A stretch of 31,118 bases of DNA, taken from IMG/VR virus record IMGVR_UViG_3300042346_001122, positions 1 through 31,118 of that record, one strand, 5' to 3'. This stretch comes from a virus. The translations under genes were made by a program, and so were the position numbers. Of this stretch, positions 4,293 to 27,145 are shown piece by piece (position 1 is the stretch's first letter; each line of letters opens with the position of its first letter). The notes under the pieces are model-generated. The model was not told where the DNA came from. It ran no database searches and worked only from the letters and a program-made list of their open reading frames with translations.

Positions 4293-4959
4293 GTATTGAA
4301 AAGTTAGCACAGTCAAAACTTCCAAACCGCTTGACAAAATCTCGCGGTTTTTCTTTGGCGAATTTCTTGGTGCAACCACAATTTGATCCGCATTCGCACC
4401 GCTCCGTAGGGTTGGGAAGTGTGTCTATAGGTTGCCACCCCATGCCTTCATAAGTTATGCAAGGTTGGCAAGATTCCTTTTTGGTTCTGACCCTACACTC
4501 CCAAGAATAACCCGCTTTCTTGTGTCCTTCAGTTCGGGCTTTTTCGTGTTGACCTGATCCGGCGTTGCTATACATCTCTAATCGCCTAAAGAAATCAGCT
4601 TTGCTAACTCCGGTAGTTTGGATTTCCTTAGCAAATTCCCTCAAATATTTGTATTCCTTTTTGAGTCGATTGCCAATTAATCCATAGTCCCGTTGATTCA
4701 TAGAACCTTTACCACCGCGACCAAGTAGGTATGATTGAATATGCAAGTTTTTGAGTGCGATCGCAGTCATTTCTTCCCAAGTTGAGAGGGATATTTTACC
4801 ATTGACCAATAATTCCCCAATGGTCTTAATATCCCCCTGTGTCGCCTCAATGTTGCGCTCCATCATAAACTTAATGGCAGTGGCGGGTACAAACTGACCC
4901 CGACCCGCACCCTGTTTGTAATGGTAGCGTTGAGTTTTAGGATTGAATAAGTAATCCAT
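4273..4959 (-). CDS. Phage minor head protein, Mu gpF-like
   Basis: I start this at ATG 4959 (MDYLFNPK, behind AAGGCACGGG), 228 residues; an upstream TTG at 4983 in the same frame has no better site. The N-terminal part is helical and Arg/Lys-rich. The C-terminal part from about 165 (KKESCQPCITYEGMGWQPID, then ERCECGSNCGC) is the signature of the Mu F / SPP1 gp7-type minor head domain: a C..C pair followed by a Gly-rich stretch and a second Cys-rich end replacing the usual HPNCRC. These proteins sit near the portal and help head assembly. Here the portal gene that normally lies just upstream is missing. It overlaps the upstream gene by 23 bases. Confidence 0.7.
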   Translation of the reverse strand: MDYLFNPKTQRYHYKQGAGRGQFVPATAIKFMMERNIEATQGDIKTIGELLVNGKISLSTWEEMTAIALKNLHIQSYLLGRGGKGSMNQRDYGLIGNRLKKEYKYLREFAKEIQTTGVSKADFFRRLEMYSNAGSGQHEKARTEGHKKAGYSWECRVRTKKESCQPCITYEGMGWQPIDTLPNPTERCECGSNCGCTKKFAKEKPRDFVKRFGSFDCANFSILMKKLG

Positions 4960-5158
4960 TTTCCCGTGCCTTTTCAGTTTCAATCATTCTTGTAGATGCC
5001 AAATCTTTTTCATATTTCAACTTAACTTTTACTAAATTATCAAGCTGATCAGGTGTCAATTTAACCTCCCCACCATAATCATCATTTATAATCCATAAAT
5101 CCCCAAGTTTAGCAAGGGTTGGACAACATCTGTTTGAGCATAGTTCAATTCTTTCCAT
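4937..5158 (-). CDS. Small hypothetical protein in head operon
   Basis: A 73-residue protein whose ATG shares its A with the stop of the upstream gene (TAATG at 5160-5156), a standard translational-coupling arrangement, and whose 3' end overlaps the minor-head gene by 23 bases. It has a Cys pair near the N-terminus (LCSNRCCP) and a charged helical C-terminus (LTPDQLDNLVKVKLKYEKDL). Not recognised. Tight coupling on both sides supports that it is real. Confidence 0.6.
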   Translation of the reverse strand: MERIELCSNRCCPTLAKLGDLWIINDDYGGEVKLTPDQLDNLVKVKLKYEKDLASTRMIETEKARENGLLIQS

Positions 5159-5532
5159 TATTTAGATCCTAAGTTAAATATTTCAATTGGGGTTTTGTAG
5201 TCGGGAATCTCCAAAGTTTTAGGAGTCTTAAAATTTCCCTCTAACTCCTCTATCTGGGATTCAATTATATTCTCAATCGACACCGAAACATAAGCATTAA
5301 ATAAACCCGCAAGAATCCCTGTAACGGGACTAAATGGCATTCCCAGAACAAAATAAACTAGCACGGAACTCTCAAATGTCTGGCAGTATGGACAATTAAA
5401 CAACTCCCTAAAAAGTTGGTGTTTCTGTTTAAGTGATTCCCTAATCCTATCAAGCAATTTGTACTTAAACAAAAACCATCTTAAACCAAGAGACAATAAC
5501 AGGAAAACTAAAACACTTTCAAAATTAGGCAT
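5158..5532 (-). CDS. DUF1360-like small membrane protein
   Basis: A 124-residue protein with an N-terminal hydrophobic helix (SVLVFLLLSLGLRWFLF, about 6-22) and a second hydrophobic stretch after a cysteine pair (LFNCPYCQTFESSVLVYFVLG, about 44-64), followed by a Gly/Ala-rich segment and a polar tail. The CxxC before a helix resembles the DUF1360 family (usually CPFCLGFW), known mainly from phages and phage-like elements but with no known function. It starts at ATG 5532, two bases after the stop of the HTH gene. A membrane protein at this place in a head operon is unusual, since terminase and portal genes are expected here. Confidence 0.6.
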   Translation of the reverse strand: MPNFESVLVFLLLSLGLRWFLFKYKLLDRIRESLKQKHQLFRELFNCPYCQTFESSVLVYFVLGMPFSPVTGILAGLFNAYVSVSIENIIESQIEELEGNFKTPKTLEIPDYKTPIEIFNLGSK

Positions 5533-5534
5533 AA

Positions 5535-6092
5535 TTAATCTTCTGAGATTTCTTGAGTTTGTTCTTTTTCAAGGTTTTCAAAGTATTCGATTAATACCTT
5601 GTTTTGATAGAGTTGATCATCTACCATTGCCAGAGTTTTCAAAACTTCCATCCCATTTCGAGAGTGAACTTGCGCTCCTGACTTGGTGGCTTTAGAACAA
5701 GCCTTTAGGGAGTCTTGCTCATTATTTGCAGCTTTATAGGCATTGTTGGAAAGGGTGAGGGAATATGCTCCGTTAGTCTCTAGGGCTTTCCTAAATGCTT
5801 GCCATGTTTTTTGTTTTTCCTCTAAATCCTGTTGATAAGCCATTCTGTCCTTTTCTATTGTTGCCTTAATTATTTCTGCCCGTTCGGTTAGGAGTTCATG
5901 TCTGATTTGCTCCCAAATAGGTAGTTTTTTCCATCGCCTTAAATTTGTTTCTGAGATGTTAAGCCGCCTACCAATCTCTCGGTTATTCAGGTAAGGGTTC
6001 TCAATAACCTCCCTGACCGCTTCCCTGATCCTTTCAATGTTTGGTACTGAAGCAATAGTTTTATTTAGCGCATGGTGACGCAATAACAACAC
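5535..6092 (-). CDS. HTH protein, possible small terminase-like
   Basis: A 185-residue protein with a HTH at about 30-58 (ENPYLNNREIGRRLNISETN, then LRRWKKLPIW) followed by long charged helices (TERAEIIKATIEKDR, then LEEKQKTWQAF). A DNA-binding N-terminus plus a helical C-terminus at the head of the head operon is the arrangement of small terminase subunits, but no large-subunit gene follows, so this is tentative. The start is uncertain: the longest frame begins at GTG 6092 with no ribosome binding site. It is divergent from the modification cassette, with only 42 bases between them. Confidence 0.6.
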   Translation of the reverse strand: MLLLRHHALNKTIASVPNIERIREAVREVIENPYLNNREIGRRLNISETNLRRWKKLPIWEQIRHELLTERAEIIKATIEKDRMAYQQDLEEKQKTWQAFRKALETNGAYSLTLSNNAYKAANNEQDSLKACSKATKSGAQVHSRNGMEVLKTLAMVDDQLYQNKVLIEYFENLEKEQTQEISED

Positions 6093-6134
6093 TTTAAAGT
6101 TAACATGGTTAAAAGTCTTATTGCAAACTAATTT

Positions 6135-6701
6135 ATGAGTAAACCTAAAATTACTGAGACAGATATCAGCAAACTAACTCCCGATCCGAATAATGCCCGC
6201 AAAAGAACGCCGTTATCAGCTAAGGTGATTTCCAAATCCTTAGAACAGTTTGGGGCTTGCCGTTCCATTGTTATTGATGAAAATGACGTTATCCGTGCGG
6301 GGAATGGAACCTTTGAGGAAGCGGGTCAACTAGGGATTGAGAAGGTTTTGGTTGTAGAAGCCGATGGTAATACGATTGTTGCTGTTAAGCGTAAAGGGTT
6401 GTCAGAGTCGGATTGGAAACAATATGCGATCGCTGATAATACGGCTTCTGATTTCTCAACATGGGACTTTGATCTATTAAATGATTTAGTTCAGGAAGTT
6501 GATCTGAGTGAGTTTTTCCCTGATTATAAATTAAATGAATTGTTGGAACAGTTGGGCAAGGGTGAAGGGTTTGGCGATACTGAACAGCAAGAGGAAGATG
6601 AGGAATCAAAACCACCAGAAGATTTTAAAGAGTATGACGAAGACATCGAAACAGAACATACTTGTCCTAAGTGTGGTTATAAATGGTCAGGGGGTAAATA
6701 A
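6135..6701 (+). CDS. ParB/Srx-fold protein with C-terminal zinc ribbon
   Basis: A 188-residue protein. Residues 5-125 are a ParB-N domain: ISKLTPDPNNARKR at the N-terminus, then SAKVISKSLEQFGACRSIVI and IRAGNGTFEEAG, the phage version of the ParB box II region. After an acidic linker (about 145-172), the C-terminus has HTCPKCGYKW, a half zinc ribbon with only two cysteines. In phages such proteins often lie next to DNA methylases; a DNA-contacting, scanning or nuclease role in the modification is a guess. The next gene starts directly after its stop, so they are one operon. The cassette is on the opposite strand to the flanking head genes. Confidence 0.75.
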   Translation: MSKPKITETDISKLTPDPNNARKRTPLSAKVISKSLEQFGACRSIVIDENDVIRAGNGTFEEAGQLGIEKVLVVEADGNTIVAVKRKGLSESDWKQYAIADNTASDFSTWDFDLLNDLVQEVDLSEFFPDYKLNELLEQLGKGEGFGDTEQQEEDEESKPPEDFKEYDEDIETEHTCPKCGYKWSGGK

Positions 6702-7772
6702 ATGAATACTAAACCTATTTACCGCGTTCCTCTAATGAAAGAGATAGAAGAAATACCCTGGAATGGGTTTAATGTTGTCTCTACATTTAGCGGAACAGGC
6801 GGATCATGTCTTGGTTATCGGATGGCTGGCTATCGAGTCTTGTGGGCTAATGAATTTATTCCTGCGGCTCAGGATTCTTATAAAGCTAATCATCCAAATT
6901 CAATTCTTGACAGGCGAGATATCCGAGAGATTTCTGCTCAGGACATCTTAACAGCAACCGGATTGAAAATAGGAGAGATAGATATATTTGATGGCTCTCC
7001 CCCTTGTGCAGCTTTTTCAACAGCAGGAAAACGTGAAGCAGGATGGGGAAAAGTTAAGCAATATTCAGATACCAAGCAAAGAGTTGATGATTTGTTTTTT
7101 GAGTACGCTCGACTAATCAAAGGAACACAGCCTAAAGTCTTTGTTGCTGAAAACGTATCAGGATTAATCAAAGGAACAGCTAAAGGCTACTTCTTAGAAA
7201 TCCTTAAAACACTCAAAGATTGCGGTTATAACGTCAAGTGTAAAGTGCTAGATGCTCAATGGCTTGGTGTTCCTCAAATGCGACAACGGACTATCTTTAT
7301 AGGTGTTAGGAATGATTTGAAGTTAGAACCTGTTCACCCAAAACCGTTGCATTATCAGTACACAGTTAGAGATGCTTTACCTTGGATAACTCAGATTAGA
7401 CAAACAGATGTTTTTGTCGAAGCAGAAACCGATATCTCAAAATATGCAATTGGTAGAGAATGGGACAAAATAAAACAAGGCGAAAGTTCAGAGAAGTATT
7501 TTTCTCTGACTAAGCCACACCTAGATAAACCGTCTCCATGCGTCACCCAAATAGGCGGTGACAATACTTGTGCATCGGTAGTTCATCCCACAGAAAAACG
7601 GAAATTTTCAATTCAAGAGTTAAAACGAATTTGCGCTTTTCCTGATGATTTTATTCTAACAGGTTCCTATGCCCAACAATGGGAAAGATTGGGTAGGGCT
7701 GTTCCACCTGTTATGATGTCACATATTGCCAAAACAATTCAATTAGAAATACTAGAAAAATGTGTGGATTAG
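6702..7772 (+). CDS. C5-cytosine DNA methyltransferase, possible carboxymethyltransferase
   Basis: A 356-residue protein with the ordered C5-methyltransferase motifs: I FSGTGG (29-34), IV SPPCAAFS with catalytic Cys102, VI ENV (150-152), VIII QMRQR (192-196) and X LGRAVPPVM (330-338). Motif X normally reads GN(A/S)V; here Asn is replaced by Arg332 (codon agg at 7695-7697). In M.MpeI the equivalent Asn374 changed to Lys is known to allow use of carboxy-SAM instead of SAM, giving 5-carboxymethylcytosine. With a CmoA-like gene two genes downstream, I infer that carboxy-SAM is the natural cofactor. Target sequence is unknown. No restriction gene is adjacent. The gene starts immediately after the ParB-like stop and overlaps the next gene by 13 bases. 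Confidence 0.9.
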   Translation: MNTKPIYRVPLMKEIEEIPWNGFNVVSTFSGTGGSCLGYRMAGYRVLWANEFIPAAQDSYKANHPNSILDRRDIREISAQDILTATGLKIGEIDIFDGSPPCAAFSTAGKREAGWGKVKQYSDTKQRVDDLFFEYARLIKGTQPKVFVAENVSGLIKGTAKGYFLEILKTLKDCGYNVKCKVLDAQWLGVPQMRQRTIFIGVRNDLKLEPVHPKPLHYQYTVRDALPWITQIRQTDVFVEAETDISKYAIGREWDKIKQGESSEKYFSLTKPHLDKPSPCVTQIGGDNTCASVVHPTEKRKFSIQELKRICAFPDDFILTGSYAQQWERLGRAVPPVMMSHIAKTIQLEILEKCVD

Positions 7773-9115
7773 CGGGTACATACAAATCCAGCGTAGATGT
7801 AGAGTCTATGCTTCTTAAAATAATACATAGGGGGCGAGATGGTCAAGGTGTTCACAAGCATGAAGACACTGTTCATGGTCACGTTAGGCTGTCTTTACTT
7901 GATTTAAGTTCGGCATCTAAACAACCTTTTATCTTAAATAATTCCACTCTTTCATTTAATGGTGAGATATGGAATTATAGAGATATAAAAAAGAAGTTAC
8001 AAGACGACGGGTGCAAATTCAATACAACAGGTGACACCGAAGTATTGAGTCAATTTTTAGATATTTACGGTGTTTCACGGCTAAATCAACTAGAGGGAAT
8101 GTTTGCTTTTGTATGGAGTAAAGGGGATGAGCATTGGCTTGTGAGAGACCGTTTTGGTGAGATACCCTTGTATCTGGCAAAAACGAATAAAGGGTATATT
8201 TGGGCATCTGAAAGAAAAGCATTTCCTAGTGGTGTTATGCCTGTTGCCGTTCCTCCGGGCTATGCTTTTAATCTAGTGAAAGGCGAGTGGTTTCAATGGT
8301 ACAAGCTACCAGGAACAACACCACAGCAAAATATATTAGATTGCTTGAATAGGGGTGTAGAACAAAGATTAAATGCTGATACTCCCGTCTGCTGTCTTAT
8401 ATCGGGCGGATTAGATAGCGTCTTGGTTCTGCAAATAGCAAAGTCTATAAACAAAAACATCGTAGCTTTTACAGCAAAAATGCGTAATGATTCAAATGAT
8501 TTACTAGCAGCCAGGAAGATATGTAGTGAGTATGAAATTCAATTAATAGAAGTGCCAGTATCTATTGATTTAGATTCTTTAACTAACGCAGCCAAGGTAA
8601 TAGAAATTAACAGCAAAGCTCAAATAGAGATAGCTTCATTATGTCTACCATTAGCACAAAGGATAAGGGCAGAAGGCTTTAAATCTTGCTTATCTGGTGA
8701 AGCTGCCGACGAGCTTTTTGGTGGTTATGGTAATTTCTGTATTCAGGCATCCAAAAGCACAAATACAGAAGTTATATCTCTTAGAAAAAGTCAATTAGCA
8801 AAAATGGCAAGAGGTAATTTTGTTAGGTGCAATAAGTCTTTTATGTATGGTGGCGTAGAGTGTAGATTGCCTTTTATGGATGTGAAGTTAGTTGAATATG
8901 CCATAAACTTAGACCTCTCGCAATCACCACCAAATAAAAAACTACTGAAATCCGCGTCGGCTAGACTGCTACCTAAATGGGTGATATCCAGGGTTAAGGA
9001 TACTTTTCAAGGTGGTAGTGGTGTGTCCGATTGGACAGAGAAAAATATAGCATCGCCAATAAAATTTTACAACAACGAACTAAAGAAAACTTTTGGATAC
9101 TTACCCAAGGATTAA
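7760..9115 (+). CDS. AsnB-like glutamine-dependent amidotransferase
   Basis: A 451-residue protein, shorter than cellular AsnB (about 510-630). The glutaminase half is intact: nucleophile Cys2 (MCGLAG), HRGRDGQG (23-30), SFNGEIWNY (65-73), TTGDTEV (89-95). The synthetase half has the PP-loop SGGLDS (215-220), LSGEAADELFGGY (311-323) and ECRLPFMD. So it can make ammonia from glutamine and activate a carboxylate with ATP. The stretch where AsnB holds aspartate (TTIRAS in E. coli) reads SKAQIEIAS here, so the substrate may not be aspartate. Between a C5-methyltransferase and a CmoA-like gene, amidation of a carboxymethyl base is the best guess. Starting at 7760 puts Cys in position 2, which decides the start. 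Confidence 0.85.
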   Translation: MCGLAGTYKSSVDVESMLLKIIHRGRDGQGVHKHEDTVHGHVRLSLLDLSSASKQPFILNNSTLSFNGEIWNYRDIKKKLQDDGCKFNTTGDTEVLSQFLDIYGVSRLNQLEGMFAFVWSKGDEHWLVRDRFGEIPLYLAKTNKGYIWASERKAFPSGVMPVAVPPGYAFNLVKGEWFQWYKLPGTTPQQNILDCLNRGVEQRLNADTPVCCLISGGLDSVLVLQIAKSINKNIVAFTAKMRNDSNDLLAARKICSEYEIQLIEVPVSIDLDSLTNAAKVIEINSKAQIEIASLCLPLAQRIRAEGFKSCLSGEAADELFGGYGNFCIQASKSTNTEVISLRKSQLAKMARGNFVRCNKSFMYGGVECRLPFMDVKLVEYAINLDLSQSPPNKKLLKSASARLLPKWVISRVKDTFQGGSGVSDWTEKNIASPIKFYNNELKKTFGYLPKD

Positions 9116-9116
9116 C

Positions 9117-9821
9117 ATGAATAATTATCACGTCCCATCTAAAGATAAATGGGAATTTGACGAATCAGTAACAGACATTTTTGATGATATGTTGGCTCGT
9201 TCAATTCCTCAATACGAGGTAATGAGAGACGCTGTTACCAATATCGCTCGTGAATACATAAAACCCGCCAGTTCTGTCATAGATATTGGATGCTCAAGAG
9301 GTGAGCAGATATCTCGACTAATTCAATCCTATGGGACTAATTGCACCTATTATGGAATCGAAGTTAGTCAACCGATGATTAACGCGAGTAGGGAAAAGTT
9401 TAAGGGTTTTGAATGCGTCAGTTTACATGAATTAGATTTAAGAAAAGATTGGTTAACTCTTAAAAACGTATCCATCACTTTGTCGGTTTTAACTTTACAG
9501 TTTATTCCGATTGAATACAGATTAAGACTACTCAAAAAAATCTATGATTCAACTCGAAAAGGCGGGTGTTTTATTTTAGTTGAAAAAGTTATTGGGGGGT
9601 CTGCTGATATTGACAGTTTATTGACCAATCAGTATTATAACTTAAAACATCAGAATGGTTATTCTATTTATGAGATAGAACGGAAAAGATTAAGCCTAGA
9701 GGGTGTACTTGTTCCGGTAACAGCTAATTGGAATGAAGAAATGCTTAGATTGTCTGGTTTTACTGAGGTTGATTGTTTTTGGCGTTGGATGAACTTTTCT
9801 GGATGGATTGCTGTTAAGTAG
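9117..9821 (+). CDS. CmoA-like carboxy-S-adenosylmethionine synthase
   Basis: I start this at ATG 9117 behind AAGGA, one base after the AsnB-like stop, giving 234 residues; a longer frame opens at 9093 but lacks a site. From memory, it aligns along its whole length with E. coli CmoA: KWEFDESVTDIFDDMLARSI at the N-terminus, SAM-binding DIGCSRGE, VSQPMI, LTLQFIPIEYR, VEKVIGG, NGYSIYEIERKRLSLEGV, and the ending WRWMNFSGWIAVK. CmoA converts SAM and prephenate to carboxy-SAM for tRNA cmo5U34; no CmoB is present here, while a DNA methyltransferase is. The KR in ERKRLSLEGV is conserved in CmoA, which I recall uses an Arg to bind the carboxylate. A plain methyltransferase of the same fold is the alternative. 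Confidence 0.82.
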   Translation: MNNYHVPSKDKWEFDESVTDIFDDMLARSIPQYEVMRDAVTNIAREYIKPASSVIDIGCSRGEQISRLIQSYGTNCTYYGIEVSQPMINASREKFKGFECVSLHELDLRKDWLTLKNVSITLSVLTLQFIPIEYRLRLLKKIYDSTRKGGCFILVEKVIGGSADIDSLLTNQYYNLKHQNGYSIYEIERKRLSLEGVLVPVTANWNEEMLRLSGFTEVDCFWRWMNFSGWIAVK

Positions 9822-9887
9822 AATGAAACTAATGGAAAGATTGCCAGATTAATTAATATTAACTGTGATATAATATTAATAGTAAAT

Positions 9888-9943
9888 GCCCTTCGCGATG
9901 TTTCAGCATCCAAGGGCTGTAAACCTGATTCAGAGGTATCACA
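9888..9943 (+). promoter_or_regulatory. Structured 5' leader, copy 1
   Basis: A TATAAT (9869-9874) is followed by a hairpin: GCCCTT (9888-9893) pairs with AAGGGC (9912-9917) and GATG (9897-9900) with CATC (9907-9910) around loop TTTCAG. Then TAAACCT and GATTCAGAGGTATCACA precede the ATG; ACCT can pair with AGGT and hide the ribosome binding site. The same architecture occurs before the genes starting at 11892 and 12397. Confidence 0.6.
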
Positions 9944-10750
9944 ATGAATAACTTTAACAAAGAATTGGCTCTAACCTTAATTGATTCTAGCATTGAGTTT
10001 CCCGTTGACTTTGATGACGCGATGCAATGGTGGGACTGTCGGACTAAGGATGGAAGTCTTACCACTCGACGGCAGTTAGTCGCAAAACTCAAGCAAAACT
10101 TTGATCAAGGATTAGATTGGACTTTTGCACAAATTTATGAAAAAGTCCAAACAGGGCGACCCGTTGATAAAATCTACCTGACAGTGGACACCTTCAAAGA
10201 AATGGGAATGATGTTACCTAGTGGCAAGGGCAAAGAGATCCGGCGTTATTTCCTTGAGTGTGAACGGGAGTTAAAACAACTTAGATCAGAATCCGCCCAA
10301 ACTCAAACAGTCTCATCCCAACCCACGCCGCGCGATATTGCTGATTTTGTCTCTGTCATCCTAAATATCGCGGGTTTGGATCAGAGTATGATTGCAGCGT
10401 CCGCAGCTAATCACGTCGCTAAATATTATCCGGCGCTCCGTCCCTCGGCTGAAGACTTAAAAAAGGAATTAGTCATCGAGACATCGGAAAAACTTCTCAC
10501 GCCCACCGAACTCGGATTAATCCTAGAGCAGCGCACCGGAATTAAACACTCAGCGCAACGGGTCAACAAACTCCTATCTGAGAATGGATTGCAAACCCCA
10601 AACCCTCACGGGAAAGATCCGGCTTGGTTGCCAACGTCAAAAGGATCAGAATTTTCTAAGTTGTTACTCGCCGCACAGAAGGGGATTAAGGACGCAACCC
10701 GTCAACACTTGCAATGGTTTGAATCCGTTGTTGATGTTTTGGCGGCGTAG
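9944..10750 (+). CDS. AntA/AntB-type phage antirepressor
   Basis: A 268-residue protein. Residues 1-110 match the AntA/AntB antirepressor N-terminal domain: FPVDFDDAMQWWD, then IYLTVDTFKEMGMMLPSGKG and IRRYFLECERELKQL. A linker follows, then a helical C-terminus (TPTELGLILEQRTGIKHS, VNKLLSENGLQTP, and a WLPTSKGSEFSKLL stretch) that reads as a DNA-binding KilA/antirepressor C-domain. Such proteins relieve repression or control entry to the lytic cycle. Translation is probably regulated by the hairpin leader just upstream. The start follows AGAGGT at a normal distance. A bidirectional terminator follows. Confidence 0.75.
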   Translation: MNNFNKELALTLIDSSIEFPVDFDDAMQWWDCRTKDGSLTTRRQLVAKLKQNFDQGLDWTFAQIYEKVQTGRPVDKIYLTVDTFKEMGMMLPSGKGKEIRRYFLECERELKQLRSESAQTQTVSSQPTPRDIADFVSVILNIAGLDQSMIAASAANHVAKYYPALRPSAEDLKKELVIETSEKLLTPTELGLILEQRTGIKHSAQRVNKLLSENGLQTPNPHGKDPAWLPTSKGSEFSKLLLAAQKGIKDATRQHLQWFESVVDVLAA

Positions 10751-11965: not shown

Positions 11966-12397
11966 TTAATCAGTCCCAAACTTTTCCCTGAGTGCCAACA
12001 TAGCTTTTTTCTTCTTATGTCTGAGATATGATTCGGCATCGGTCAGATTCCGACCTGGATAGATTCTCGGCCTCCCTACGGGCTTAGGGTCTGAGGTTGT
12101 TATTTTCTCATGGATTCTCGGTCGCCCCTCTGGTTTGGGATTTGAAATTTGGGACGCTCCGCAGGGTGTACAGCGCCACTTCTGCCTCCCGTCCGAATGA
12201 ACCCCGTTTTTTTTCATCTTGTGTCCGCACTTTGGACATGGCGGGTTTTTCTTGGCTTCATTGGATTTTCGATTCCGTAACCAACAGGGATTGCAGAAAT
12301 ACTTTTGTTTTCCGGTTGGCGTTATCCCAGACTTCCACATCTTCCCACCGCAAGTTAAGCAGCGCGGGTTATATTTTTCCGTGTTATCTTTGTCCAT
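11966..12397 (-). CDS. Double zinc-ribbon protein with two AT-hook-like motifs
   Basis: A 143-residue protein with two transposase-type (InsA/IS1-like) zinc ribbons in tandem: CLTCGGKMWKSG...YFCNPCW (about 13-39) and CPKCGHKMKKNG...WRCTPCG (about 54-79). Then come two copies of an AT-hook-like core, PEGRPRIHEK and PVGRPRIYPG, and a basic tail (YLRHKKKKAMLALREKFG). It therefore looks like a DNA-binding protein, perhaps a regulator or silencer-type protein derived from a transposase N-terminus. No transposase catalytic domain follows. It lies behind copy 3 of the structured leader. Confidence 0.65.
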   Translation of the reverse strand: MDKDNTEKYNPRCLTCGGKMWKSGITPTGKQKYFCNPCWLRNRKSNEAKKNPPCPKCGHKMKKNGVHSDGRQKWRCTPCGASQISNPKPEGRPRIHEKITTSDPKPVGRPRIYPGRNLTDAESYLRHKKKKAMLALREKFGTD

Positions 12398-18761: not shown

Positions 18762-19310
18762 ATGATTATACAACAACTTTCACTATTTGAAACACAACCC
18801 GTAATTCTTGATTCAAACGAAAATTATACCCCGTCTGATTTGATTGATTTAGTCCATGAGTTTTATGGATTTCCTGAATTAGACCCTTTTAGCTGTGAAC
18901 TTGCCAACCGAACGGTAAAAGCTCAAAAGATATTCACAATTCAAGATGATGGATTTAAACAGAACTGGAGGGCTAAGACACTCTGGTTAAACCCTCCCTA
19001 CAGCGCGGGATTTGTTGAGAAGGTTGTTGATAAATTAATTCAAACCCTGAACGAGACGGAAGCGGAAGCATTCTTGTTAACCAATACTGACAACAGTACA
19101 GCCTGGTATAAAAAGGCTTTGAATCGGTGCGATCGCTTCTGCCTACCCTCAACCCGACTCACATTCTACAGTCCCAAACGGGCGGCGGAAGGAAAAAAAC
19201 AAGACCAAAACAGGTTCTCCCAAACTCTGTTTTATTTTGGATTGCAACCTCAAAGATTTGAGGAAATTTTTGAGGGGTGGGGAACTGTTTGTCAAACTTC
19301 TAAATGGTAG
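18762..19310 (+). CDS. Phage DNA adenine-N6 methyltransferase with N-terminal clamp motif
   Basis: A 182-residue protein of the phage Dam type: short, with SAM-binding part around LDPFSCELAN (40-49) and catalytic NPPYS (77-81) in TLWLNPPYSAGF, followed by VVDKLIQTL and EAFLLTNTDNSTAWY. The first residues read MIIQQLSLFETQ; QLSLF (5-9) fits the bacterial sliding-clamp-binding consensus (QL[SD]LF), so the enzyme may ride on the host beta clamp. Known: phage Dam enzymes protect or mark DNA. Inferred: clamp coupling. Its start codon is about 30 bases after the hairpin at 18695. Confidence 0.8.
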   Translation: MIIQQLSLFETQPVILDSNENYTPSDLIDLVHEFYGFPELDPFSCELANRTVKAQKIFTIQDDGFKQNWRAKTLWLNPPYSAGFVEKVVDKLIQTLNETEAEAFLLTNTDNSTAWYKKALNRCDRFCLPSTRLTFYSPKRAAEGKKQDQNRFSQTLFYFGLQPQRFEEIFEGWGTVCQTSKW

Positions 19311-24918: not shown

Positions 24919-26355
24919 CTATTTATTAATTAAGACTTTGGACTGAGAGGACTGAGATAATTGAGACTCCCATGCGGGTTTTAGGTAGTTAATGTAACGC
25001 TTGTTAGTAGAACGCGGCTCTATTCCTAACTCGCTACAAATTTGTTTTAGGGGTGATGGAATCAAACCGTGGGAATATTTAAAAGCCCGAAGTTCAAGAG
25101 AAGATTTAAACAGGGCAGTATTAACCTGCTCCCACCAATCACTATCCGGGTCGGTTGATTTGGCACTGGCAAAGGTAACGTTAAATCCTGATAGGTCAGG
25201 AATTACCACGACACGGCTTTGTCCTTTGATTGTGCAGATAGCCGGGCGTTTACCTTCTTTTAGGAGTCGCTCTGCTATCTCAATTAGCCCTGTTTTCTCC
25301 CCTCCTAAATATTTGATTTGAGACTCAGGGATTGAGGGATAACAAATAATTAGCTGTGCAATATTCTCAAGGGTTGCGAGGGTAAAGCCGCCCTCACCAA
25401 CGGACGCGGATTGACCCACGGGGATTAACTTAATCTTGTAGCCTCTACCCTGCTTAATGATCTCAATTAGCTTATCGAGCCGGGAATTGGTTTTGTCTGA
25501 CTTGTATCGTTCCACGATACTGTCAAATTCTTCGCAGATTAGGCAAATCGGAGTCAGGTCAACTTGAATTTCTGATAACTTGGTAAAGCCGTTTCTGGCT
25601 CCGTCAACACAAGCCTTAATCCGTTTATCTAATTGGGCGTGAACGTGATCAATTAGGCTATCAATCTCGTCATCGGGTTGCTTGATCCATTCGGTGTCCA
25701 ACCCAAACCAATTATTAAGATAACCGTCATTATCGGGCTTTCCATAGTTCGGGTCAGCAATAAACAGTTGACCATCGGGGTTATTCTCAAGCCATTGACT
25801 GATTATCAATCCCAGGAGTTTAGATTTTCCCGACCCCGTGCCACCCGTTAGCCTTTGATGTGGCAACGATAGAAATTCAGATACCCAACCCGAATCATCT
25901 TTGATTGATTGAAACTTAGACTTGATTTCCGGTGGGATAGCTTTGATTAAGAGTTGTGAAGATTTGGCATAACCTTTTTCTCCAAAGTCCCCTAGACTAT
26001 CCAAAGCCTGACCAACTCCCCAAACTGTCCAACTAACTGATTTAGCCAAGGTATCGGGGACGGTGCGGGGTAGATCCTCAAGTTTGACCATAGACTCATC
26101 CCCTAGTATCAACCCCGCTAAAGCACCAAGGCATCCCACGCCCGCTAAATATAGAAGGATTGAATTATTAACGGGTTTACGCTCAATTACCAAAACGCTA
26201 CCCCATTCTCCTTTCTGAGATTGGTGGGGTGAGATACCTTTTAAATCCTCAATCTGAACAGTCGCAGCGCTGAATAAACCAATGGCTGAAAATCCTAAAC
26301 TTGCTGCAACGGCAACTCCCCAATTCTCCTTAGTGAAGTTATTTGGTTTTGGCAT
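24919..26355 (-). CDS. FtsK/HerA-type membrane ATPase, coupling-protein-like
   Basis: I start it at ATG 26355 behind a perfect AGGAGG; 478 residues. Two N-terminal membrane spans (about 10-32 and 64-85) are followed by a motor domain: Walker A GGTGSGKS (171-178), GQLFIADPNYG near 195-205 and Walker B CLICEEFD (271-278), then GYKIKLIPVGQSAS. The C-terminus (LIPSPLKQICSELGIEPRS) looks like a small DNA-binding helix bundle. This is the layout of membrane DNA pumps: FtsK, TraD/VirD4 coupling proteins or HerA. With tethered M23 and GH108 enzymes nearby, a DNA-transfer or packaging role is possible; with no terminase in the window I cannot tell which. Confidence 0.75.
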   Translation of the reverse strand: MPKPNNFTKENWGVAVAASLGFSAIGLFSAATVQIEDLKGISPHQSQKGEWGSVLVIERKPVNNSILLYLAGVGCLGALAGLILGDESMVKLEDLPRTVPDTLAKSVSWTVWGVGQALDSLGDFGEKGYAKSSQLLIKAIPPEIKSKFQSIKDDSGWVSEFLSLPHQRLTGGTGSGKSKLLGLIISQWLENNPDGQLFIADPNYGKPDNDGYLNNWFGLDTEWIKQPDDEIDSLIDHVHAQLDKRIKACVDGARNGFTKLSEIQVDLTPICLICEEFDSIVERYKSDKTNSRLDKLIEIIKQGRGYKIKLIPVGQSASVGEGGFTLATLENIAQLIICYPSIPESQIKYLGGEKTGLIEIAERLLKEGKRPAICTIKGQSRVVVIPDLSGFNVTFASAKSTDPDSDWWEQVNTALFKSSLELRAFKYSHGLIPSPLKQICSELGIEPRSTNKRYINYLKPAWESQLSQSSQSKVLINK

Positions 26356-27145
26356 CTTTAGCCTCCTTTTCTGCCAATTGTTTAGCCTCAAGTTCTAATT
26401 GCTTTTGAAGGGCCTCAGTCCGCTTCTGCTGCTCGTAGGTTAAAGCTCTAAGTGTCATGGCAACCTCAGAGAACCGACGGACATCACTCGCCAAAACCGA
26501 GACATTAACAGAGGTAAACTTTAATTGAATTTGATCTGCCGATGTAGTTTCCCAATGGCGTTTTAGTGCCAAAAGATTTCCCCAAACCTCAAACAACAAA
26601 TCAGCCGCTTGCTTCCGTTCTTTAGGTGAACCGTTAAATTCTCCCTCTAGCGTAGCTTTATCAAGTTTGTTAGCCAGAAAGTTGATTTTCTTAATCAGAA
26701 ATAACTCAATAGAAATGGGTTTCTTTTCAATCTCAGAACGAGCTTGCAACAGGAATGTTTCTGCTACCGCTTCACTCAGATTGTTAACTTGAAAACCTAC
26801 CTCGTTTAATGACTTATCTAATAGCTCATTTCGTGCCATTTCTAAGTCAGGGGATGGTTGAAATTCTCCAGAATTATCATTAGCTTCGGTCGAGGTTTCC
26901 CCTGTTGGTTCTACCGTCATTTGCTGAACTTCGGCAGTTTCAGCTACGGGAACGTTAGGAGCAAACTTCTTGATAATTCCTGATTTATTCCCGACTAAGG
27001 TAATAAAACTACAAACTGCAATAACTGTTAGTAAAACCGCTACTCGTTTTCGTGTTTTATTAGGCTTTCTAGGTTCCCTCTGAGTGGCTTCTGAATCCCC
27101 ACTAAAAGCTGGTAAGTCATCACTAGGCTGTAAACTGTCTAACAT
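26339..27145 (-). CDS. Single-span membrane protein with coiled-coil end
   Basis: A 268-residue protein: a polar N-terminus, one membrane span (VAVLLTVIAVCSFITLVG, about 34-51), a long acidic helical region and a C-terminal coiled coil (QQKRTEALQKQLELEAKQLA, about 241-260). Its end overlaps the ATPase start by 17 bases, so they are coupled. Most of it would face the periplasm. Not recognised; a scaffold or partner of the ATPase is plausible. Confidence 0.6.
   Translation of the reverse strand: MLDSLQPSDDLPAFSGDSEATQREPRKPNKTRKRVAVLLTVIAVCSFITLVGNKSGIIKKFAPNVPVAETAEVQQMTVEPTGETSTEANDNSGEFQPSPDLEMARNELLDKSLNEVGFQVNNLSEAVAETFLLQARSEIEKKPISIELFLIKKINFLANKLDKATLEGEFNGSPKERKQAADLLFEVWGNLLALKRHWETTSADQIQLKFTSVNVSVLASDVRRFSEVAMTLRALTYEQQKRTEALQKQLELEAKQLAEKEAKDAKTK

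Follow-up and report, generated by a model that had tools for sequence, protein, structure and literature searches.

A four-gene cassette in the IMG/VR virus record IMGVR_UViG_3300042346_001122 very probably adds an acidic side chain to phage cytosines and then caps it with an amide, by which the phage would dodge bacterial restriction. The stretch analysed, hereafter the window, is the complete record of 31,118 bases and probably a fragment. It encodes, head to tail at 6135–9821 and with every gene intact, a ParB-domain protein, a C5-cytosine DNA methyltransferase (CmoX), an AsnB-like glutamine amidotransferase (CmoY) and a homologue of CmoA. CmoA and CmoX very probably make 5-carboxymethylcytosine (5cxmC). 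The end product is likely to be 5-carbamoylmethylcytosine, with the window a member of the glutamine amidotransferase (GATase)-type CmoA–CmoX–CmoY subgroup. The features of the cassette are:

6135..6701, plus strand: ParB-domain (DNA-binding) protein with a C-terminal CPKCGYKW zinc ribbon, 188 amino acids (PHROG phrog_620, 1e-32)
6702..7772, plus strand: cmoX, predicted DNA cytosine C5-carboxymethyltransferase, 356 amino acids (best PDB match 8YF3, SpCmoX, 3.5e-72)
7372..7597, plus strand: target-recognition domain (TRD) of CmoX, about residues 224–299, replaced as a block among otherwise near-identical phages
7760..9115, plus strand: cmoY of the GATase type, predicted glutamine-dependent AMP-forming amide ligase, 451 amino acids (Cys2, PP-loop S215–S220, K413, K286-A-Q288-I-E290)
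9117..9821, plus strand: cmoA, predicted prephenate-dependent carboxy-SAM synthase, 234 amino acids from the likely ATG (TIGR00740, 166 bits)

A preliminary description of this DNA had placed three overlapping or abutting plus-strand genes here. The corresponding open reading frames (ORFs) were found at 6702–7772 (356 amino acids), 7760–9115 (451 amino acids) and 9093–9821 (242 amino acids, with a TTG start inside cmoY), and their Pfam, PHROGs and NCBIfam assignments agree (C5 methyltransferase PF00145, 1e-59; Asn_synthase, 2e-37, with GATase_6/7, ~1e-28; CmoA TIGR00740, 9e-49). The arrangement itself needed refinement. The cmoX and cmoY genes do overlap, by 13 bp, and the start of cmoA is most likely the ATG at 9117 rather than the TTG at 9093, because this ATG and an AAGGA 5 nt upstream of it are kept in five of the five relatives checked; cmoA therefore abuts the cmoY stop with no overlap. 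In addition, the ParB-domain/zinc-ribbon gene lies directly against cmoX and forms the fourth member of the cassette. Its homologue is a constant neighbour of cmoX, present in 65 of 82 related contigs, and the zinc ribbon also occurs in the homologues of TurkishDelight, Mcat8 and PaBG.

In Synechococcus phage S-B43, 5cxmC is made by CmoA and CmoX, after which glycine is ligated by CmoY (Yang et al., Nat Commun, Dec 2025, PMC12783734). According to that study, the S-B43 CmoA makes carboxy-S-adenosylmethionine (carboxy-SAM, Cx-SAM) with a kcat of 2.33 per second, compared with 0.23 per second for its E. coli counterpart. SpCmoX (structure 8YF3) makes 5cxmC at GC and as wild type accepts only Cx-SAM; its R350 contacts the carboxylate, and R350N is inactive. 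The S-B43 phage DNA contains the glycine amide, and 5cxmC blocks HhaI in vitro. The same work lists 5,615 CmoX candidates, many of which adjoin CmoA, ligases or ParBc proteins, and describes a second-largest ligase cluster with a glutamine-hydrolysing domain, for which the use of ammonia is predicted. Earlier literature thus covers the natural occurrence of 5cxmC, the association of the three genes, their ParB neighbour and the proposal that a ligase takes ammonia. In homologues, it has been shown that Cx-SAM is made, 5cxmC is formed, an amide is joined on DNA and HhaI is blocked (PMC12783734); for the window phage, we infer a primary amide as the product, the specificity for sites and a protective effect. 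The preliminary description had left open whether a carbamoylmethyl pyrimidine was already described in natural DNA. The literature searched, with subscription papers and preprints outside the search, held only PMC12783734 as relevant to 5-carbamoylmethylcytosine, and the primary amide is not demonstrated there.

The S-B43 system is like the window in having homologous CmoA and CmoX proteins with all cofactor-contact residues, in its AsnB-like ligase and in the adjacency of its genes. It differs in the CmoY, which has 271 amino acids, lacks a GATase domain and joins glycine, in the order cmoA–cmoY–cmoX and in having no adjoining ParB gene. By comparison, the window CmoY carries GATase_6/7 and is not a short ligase of the glycine type (SpCmoY). 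As in the window, an AsnB-like ligase with a glutamine-amidase domain stands beside CmoA and CmoX in the A0A7T0Q3R0 cluster (PMC12783734, Fig. 8f), to which we assign the window from its domain composition and gene context; gp124 of TurkishDelight exemplifies this ligase in an isolated phage.

The cassette would carry out a post-replicative hypermodification of DNA cytosine. CmoA would convert S-adenosylmethionine (SAM) and host prephenate into Cx-SAM, and CmoX would flip a cytosine out at its recognition sequence and transfer the carboxymethyl group to C5, giving 5cxmC. CmoY would then adenylate the carboxylate of 5cxmC on the DNA, while its N-terminal glutaminase would release ammonia from glutamine and channel it to the acyl-adenylate by a tunnel like that of AsnB, yielding 5-carbamoylmethylcytosine. 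The ParB-like protein probably helps to target the DNA. The neutral, bulky base would block restriction enzymes, and a switch of TRD in CmoX would alter the set of protected sites. Of the pathway as first described, Cx-SAM formation by CmoA, carboxymethylation by CmoX and an AsnB-like amidation are strongly supported by our residue tests and by the biochemistry of a homologous cassette (PMC12783734), the carbamoylmethyl step still being a prediction.

Every Cx-SAM contact named for SpCmoX (PMC12783734) is retained in the window CmoX, for which the next PDB match after 8YF3 reaches only 4e-28. Residues F29, E51, F52, D73, S99–C102 and R332 align with F25, E47, F48, D69, S95–C98 and R350 of SpCmoX; the SPPC motif (S99-P-P-C102) supplies the nucleophile C102, and R332 occupies the position of the Arg that binds the Cx-SAM carboxylate (R350 in SpCmoX, N304 in HhaI). 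This diagnostic Arg is found in 81 of 81 CmoX homologues, from 79 IMG/VR contigs, TurkishDelight and the Streptomyces locus L098, and the other contact residues do not vary among the 80 homologues that span them. In M.MpeI N374K, an enzyme that differs from CmoX in being engineered and CG-specific, a basic residue at the corresponding position in motif X likewise admits Cx-SAM (PMC12783734). A second C5-methyltransferase, encoded by the near-identical 75-kb phage G001 (61737–62771, equal to L185 1737–2771), has GNAVPP with Asn at motif X and looks like an ordinary 5-methylcytosine enzyme, an internal contrast to the Arg of CmoX. Whereas SpCmoX recognizes GC, the window CmoX carries a differing TRD that is swapped among relatives. 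CmoA matches TIGR00740/PRK15451 over its full length and scores 166 bits against TIGR00740 (residues 18–242 of 242), compared with 115.6 for the proven SpCmoA. Both are lower than the curated cut-off of 193.3, which is uninformative for phage enzymes because the proven SpCmoA falls below it too.

The linkage of these genes is not due to chance, because among 82 distinct IMG/VR contigs with a GATase-type CmoY (GATase-CmoY) both partners are present in 78 (CmoX in 79, CmoA in 80), whereas CmoX or CmoA was found near none of 79 ordinary bacterial AsnB-like loci. All four genes are present in 65 of the 82 contigs, 61 have the exact order ParB–CmoX–CmoY–CmoA, and two of the three without CmoX (L034 and L084) end just upstream of cmoY. 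The isolate Streptomyces phage TurkishDelight, with gp124 as its GATase-CmoY, has the same gene order as the window; the three-gene order, which the preliminary description had proposed to look for as a check, is indeed shared with other phages. The bacterial controls came from a scan of genome contigs in which nearly all matches were bacterial AsnB-like genes; the scan also gave a single Streptomyces chromosome carrying the entire cassette (L098, Streptomyces sp. CCM_MD2014): positions 4846–10311 hold a complete two-ParB–CmoX–CmoY–CmoA cassette, presumably a prophage, with CmoX, CmoY and CmoA 77–86% identical to those of TurkishDelight. As a separate observation, Moraxella phage Mcat8 (L003, 5517–7717) carries ParB–CmoX–CmoA with no adjoining ligase gene and with a short, divergent CmoA; its cassette entries are annotated as hypothetical proteins only, and this cassette may leave 5cxmC uncapped.

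The glutaminase residues of CmoY are intact (C2, R43, N67, G68, E69 and D92, corresponding to Cys1, R49, N74, G75, E76 and D98 of AsnB), as are the PP-loop SGGLDS at 215–220 and K413. The AlphaFold model (predicted local distance difference test, 92) has E. coli AsnB (1CT9) as its best PDB match, with a TM score of 0.90. CmoY shares with this enzyme the fold, the glutaminase site, the PP-loop and the catalytic Lys; it differs in being ~100 residues shorter, in its genomic context and in the aspartate site. In an ungapped phmmer alignment, CmoY K286-A-Q-I-E290 lies opposite V-T-T-I-R, so that T322-T323-I324-R325 of AsnB (Met-numbered) is replaced by A287-Q288-I289-E290. The T322-T323-x-R325 segment is one that we take, from AsnB mutagenesis, to help bind aspartate. 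With these aspartate-site residues lost, CmoY was rejected as an asparagine synthetase; its TIGR01536 score is 257.0 bits, under the cut-off of 267.1. The K-x-Q-[IV]-E signature of this segment, which was found in no paper searched, occurs in 83 of 84 phage or prophage GATase-CmoYs against 0 of 79 bacterial AsnB-like proteins. Glycine-type CmoYs read K-T-H-F-E at the same position (28 of 28), and PaBG reads K-T-D-F-E. The residues that hold aspartate thus appear to be replaced by a pocket common to both CmoY types, which would fit a shared substrate, 5cxmC-DNA, and the GATase domain would set the nitrogen donor. The cmoY genes of the window and L014 are separated by 68 synonymous and 24 non-synonymous codon differences, in keeping with purifying selection. 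The phage 7-deazaguanine amidotransferases (phage 9g and Achromobacter phage Motura) are likewise of the AsnB/GATase type and concern modified DNA bases; they show weak similarity to CmoY and adjoin deazaguanine genes, not CmoX or CmoA, and the Motura protein is without the K-x-Q-[IV]-E motif.

Further evidence comes from cyanophage-like contigs. In L090–L097 (for example L091, 4306–7510), CmoA and CmoX are 88–100% and 93–95% identical, respectively, to the proven S-B43 enzymes, and the gene between them is a GATase-CmoY, where S-B43 has a glycine CmoY. A glycine CmoY occupies that slot in 28 other contigs, whose CmoX, where present, is 69–97% identical to SpCmoX. The GATase-CmoY therefore appears to work beside an enzyme pair with a known 5cxmC product, which we regard as the strongest, though indirect, evidence for 5cxmC as its substrate. 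The cyanophage CmoX tree does not resolve one ligase exchange from several. In-place replacement of a glycine ligase by an amidotransferase ligase was found in no paper searched and is absent from the main text of PMC12783734.

Several observations weigh against the proposed pathway. AsnB-fold enzymes can keep an unused GATase fold, as in beta-lactam synthetase. Some distant GATase-CmoYs vary in an oxyanion/glutamine-site residue, with NGE changed to NGT in all eight contigs L090–L097, while four contigs read VGE instead. Neither CmoA nor CmoY reaches its NCBIfam equivalog cut-off. The count of K-x-Q-[IV]-E signatures is partly biased, as the second IMG/VR scan used two peptide patterns, of which one included the motif; all sequences found independently of that pattern (the window relatives, L017–L022, TurkishDelight and L098) carry the signature too. 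Moreover, the only proven CmoY uses glycine, and the proteins of the GATase ligase cluster were insoluble, with their product not demonstrated (PMC12783734). CmoY might accordingly join a bulkier amine, whether glycine, a different amino acid or a polyamine, to the 5cxmC made by CmoA and CmoX, its GATase domain having a structural role or a side activity. The glycine amide produced by SpCmoY, the K-x-x-hydrophobic-E motif common to both CmoY types and the varying GATase-site residues of some distant members speak for this alternative. We nevertheless consider it unlikely: the glutaminase residues of the window are all intact, Cys2 is retained in every GATase-CmoY with a complete N-terminus, the upkeep of a ~190-residue glutaminase would be unexplained unless ammonia is used, and GATase-CmoY and glycine-CmoY alternate in one slot. 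Ammonia as the amine, and thus 5-carbamoylmethylcytosine as the product, is the reading that we prefer.

The specificity of CmoX may vary among close relatives. In the window and 11 IMG/VR contigs whose CmoY is 94–99.8% identical to that of the window, CmoX falls into three types with unrelated TRDs (19–23% identical over 53–98 residues). The catalytic part is common to the types (window and L006 100% identical, window and L007 82%), as is the C-terminal part. At the DNA level, the window is 96.6–99.7% identical to L006, L008 and L009 on both sides of 7378–7631, and homology stops inside. The second type comprises L006, L008, L009, L010 and L011 and the third L007 and L014, and L013 has a 22-residue insertion within a TRD of the window type. 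The exchange is not an assembly accident, because the five contigs of the second type share the same alternative domain in intact ORFs. For the alternative TRD of L006, a phage match was sought and none was found, and its AlphaFold model, from a shallow alignment, is of low confidence. Recognition-domain exchange is known among ordinary methyltransferases. Its occurrence in CmoX suggests diversifying selection on the protected sequence, as expected for anti-restriction. TRD swapping in CmoX among near-identical phages was found in no paper searched and is absent from the main text of PMC12783734.

Elsewhere the window contains the following features, together with lysis enzymes of the GH108 and M23 families and a RuvC-like resolvase:

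9944–10750: anti-repressor gene, following the cassette
11966–12397, minus strand: Lar-like restriction-alleviation protein (phrog_6422, 1e-37), a putative second anti-restriction gene near the cassette
18762–19310, plus strand: small DNA-methyltransferase-like protein, 182 amino acids, with a WLNPPYS motif (phrog_111)
24919–26391, minus strand: FtsK/HerA-like ATPase (phrog_1358, 1.5e-9), for which the 75-kb and 53-kb phages, related in other respects, yielded no counterpart

Around the cassette, the 75-kb contig G001 has genes near-identical to those of the window; with an integrase, DnaB and a head protein, it is by gene content a temperate, tailed-type phage. The window phage is probably temperate too, because this near-identical relative encodes an integrase. 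This lifestyle, and the anti-repressor gene next downstream of the cassette, would suit a role of the same chemistry in modifying host chromatin or regulation during lysogeny rather than in restriction protection. Such a role is improbable in our view, as the TRD exchange and the nearby Lar-like gene point to anti-restriction and 5cxmC blocks HhaI in vitro (PMC12783734).

The weakest alternative is that CmoX is an ordinary 5-methylcytosine methyltransferase, with the CmoA-like and AsnB-like genes belonging to a different pathway, such as modification of tRNA or synthesis of a metabolite: C5-methyltransferases occur widely in phages (922 phage records match) and cellular roles exist for CmoA and AsnB homologues, but it is very improbable given the near-constant three-gene linkage, the lost aspartate site and R332 in place of the motif-X Asn of methylating enzymes, an Arg with which SpCmoX takes Cx-SAM only. 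On this Arg the ordinary-methyltransferase assignment of CmoX was rejected, and the CmoA-like gene was rejected as a tRNA-pathway gene, no CmoB having been recognized in the window.

Somewhat less firmly than for the product in the window, we think it probable that 5-carbamoylmethylcytosine is a natural base of many environmental phages, made by a DNA-acting glutamine-dependent ligase, and that this ligase and the CmoX TRD are swapped as independent modules. The cyanophage exchange, in which the same proven CmoA/CmoX pair stands with two alternative ligases, offers a clean test. If the product is confirmed, the carboxamide would stand beside the glycine amide among natural DNA caps built on 5cxmC, and the amidotransferase would act on DNA as a counterpart of asparagine synthetase. 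The TRD variants would supply carboxymethyltransferases of differing site specificity for DNA labelling. Furthermore, the modular exchange of ligase and TRD would show phages diversifying base modification in both chemistry and sequence.

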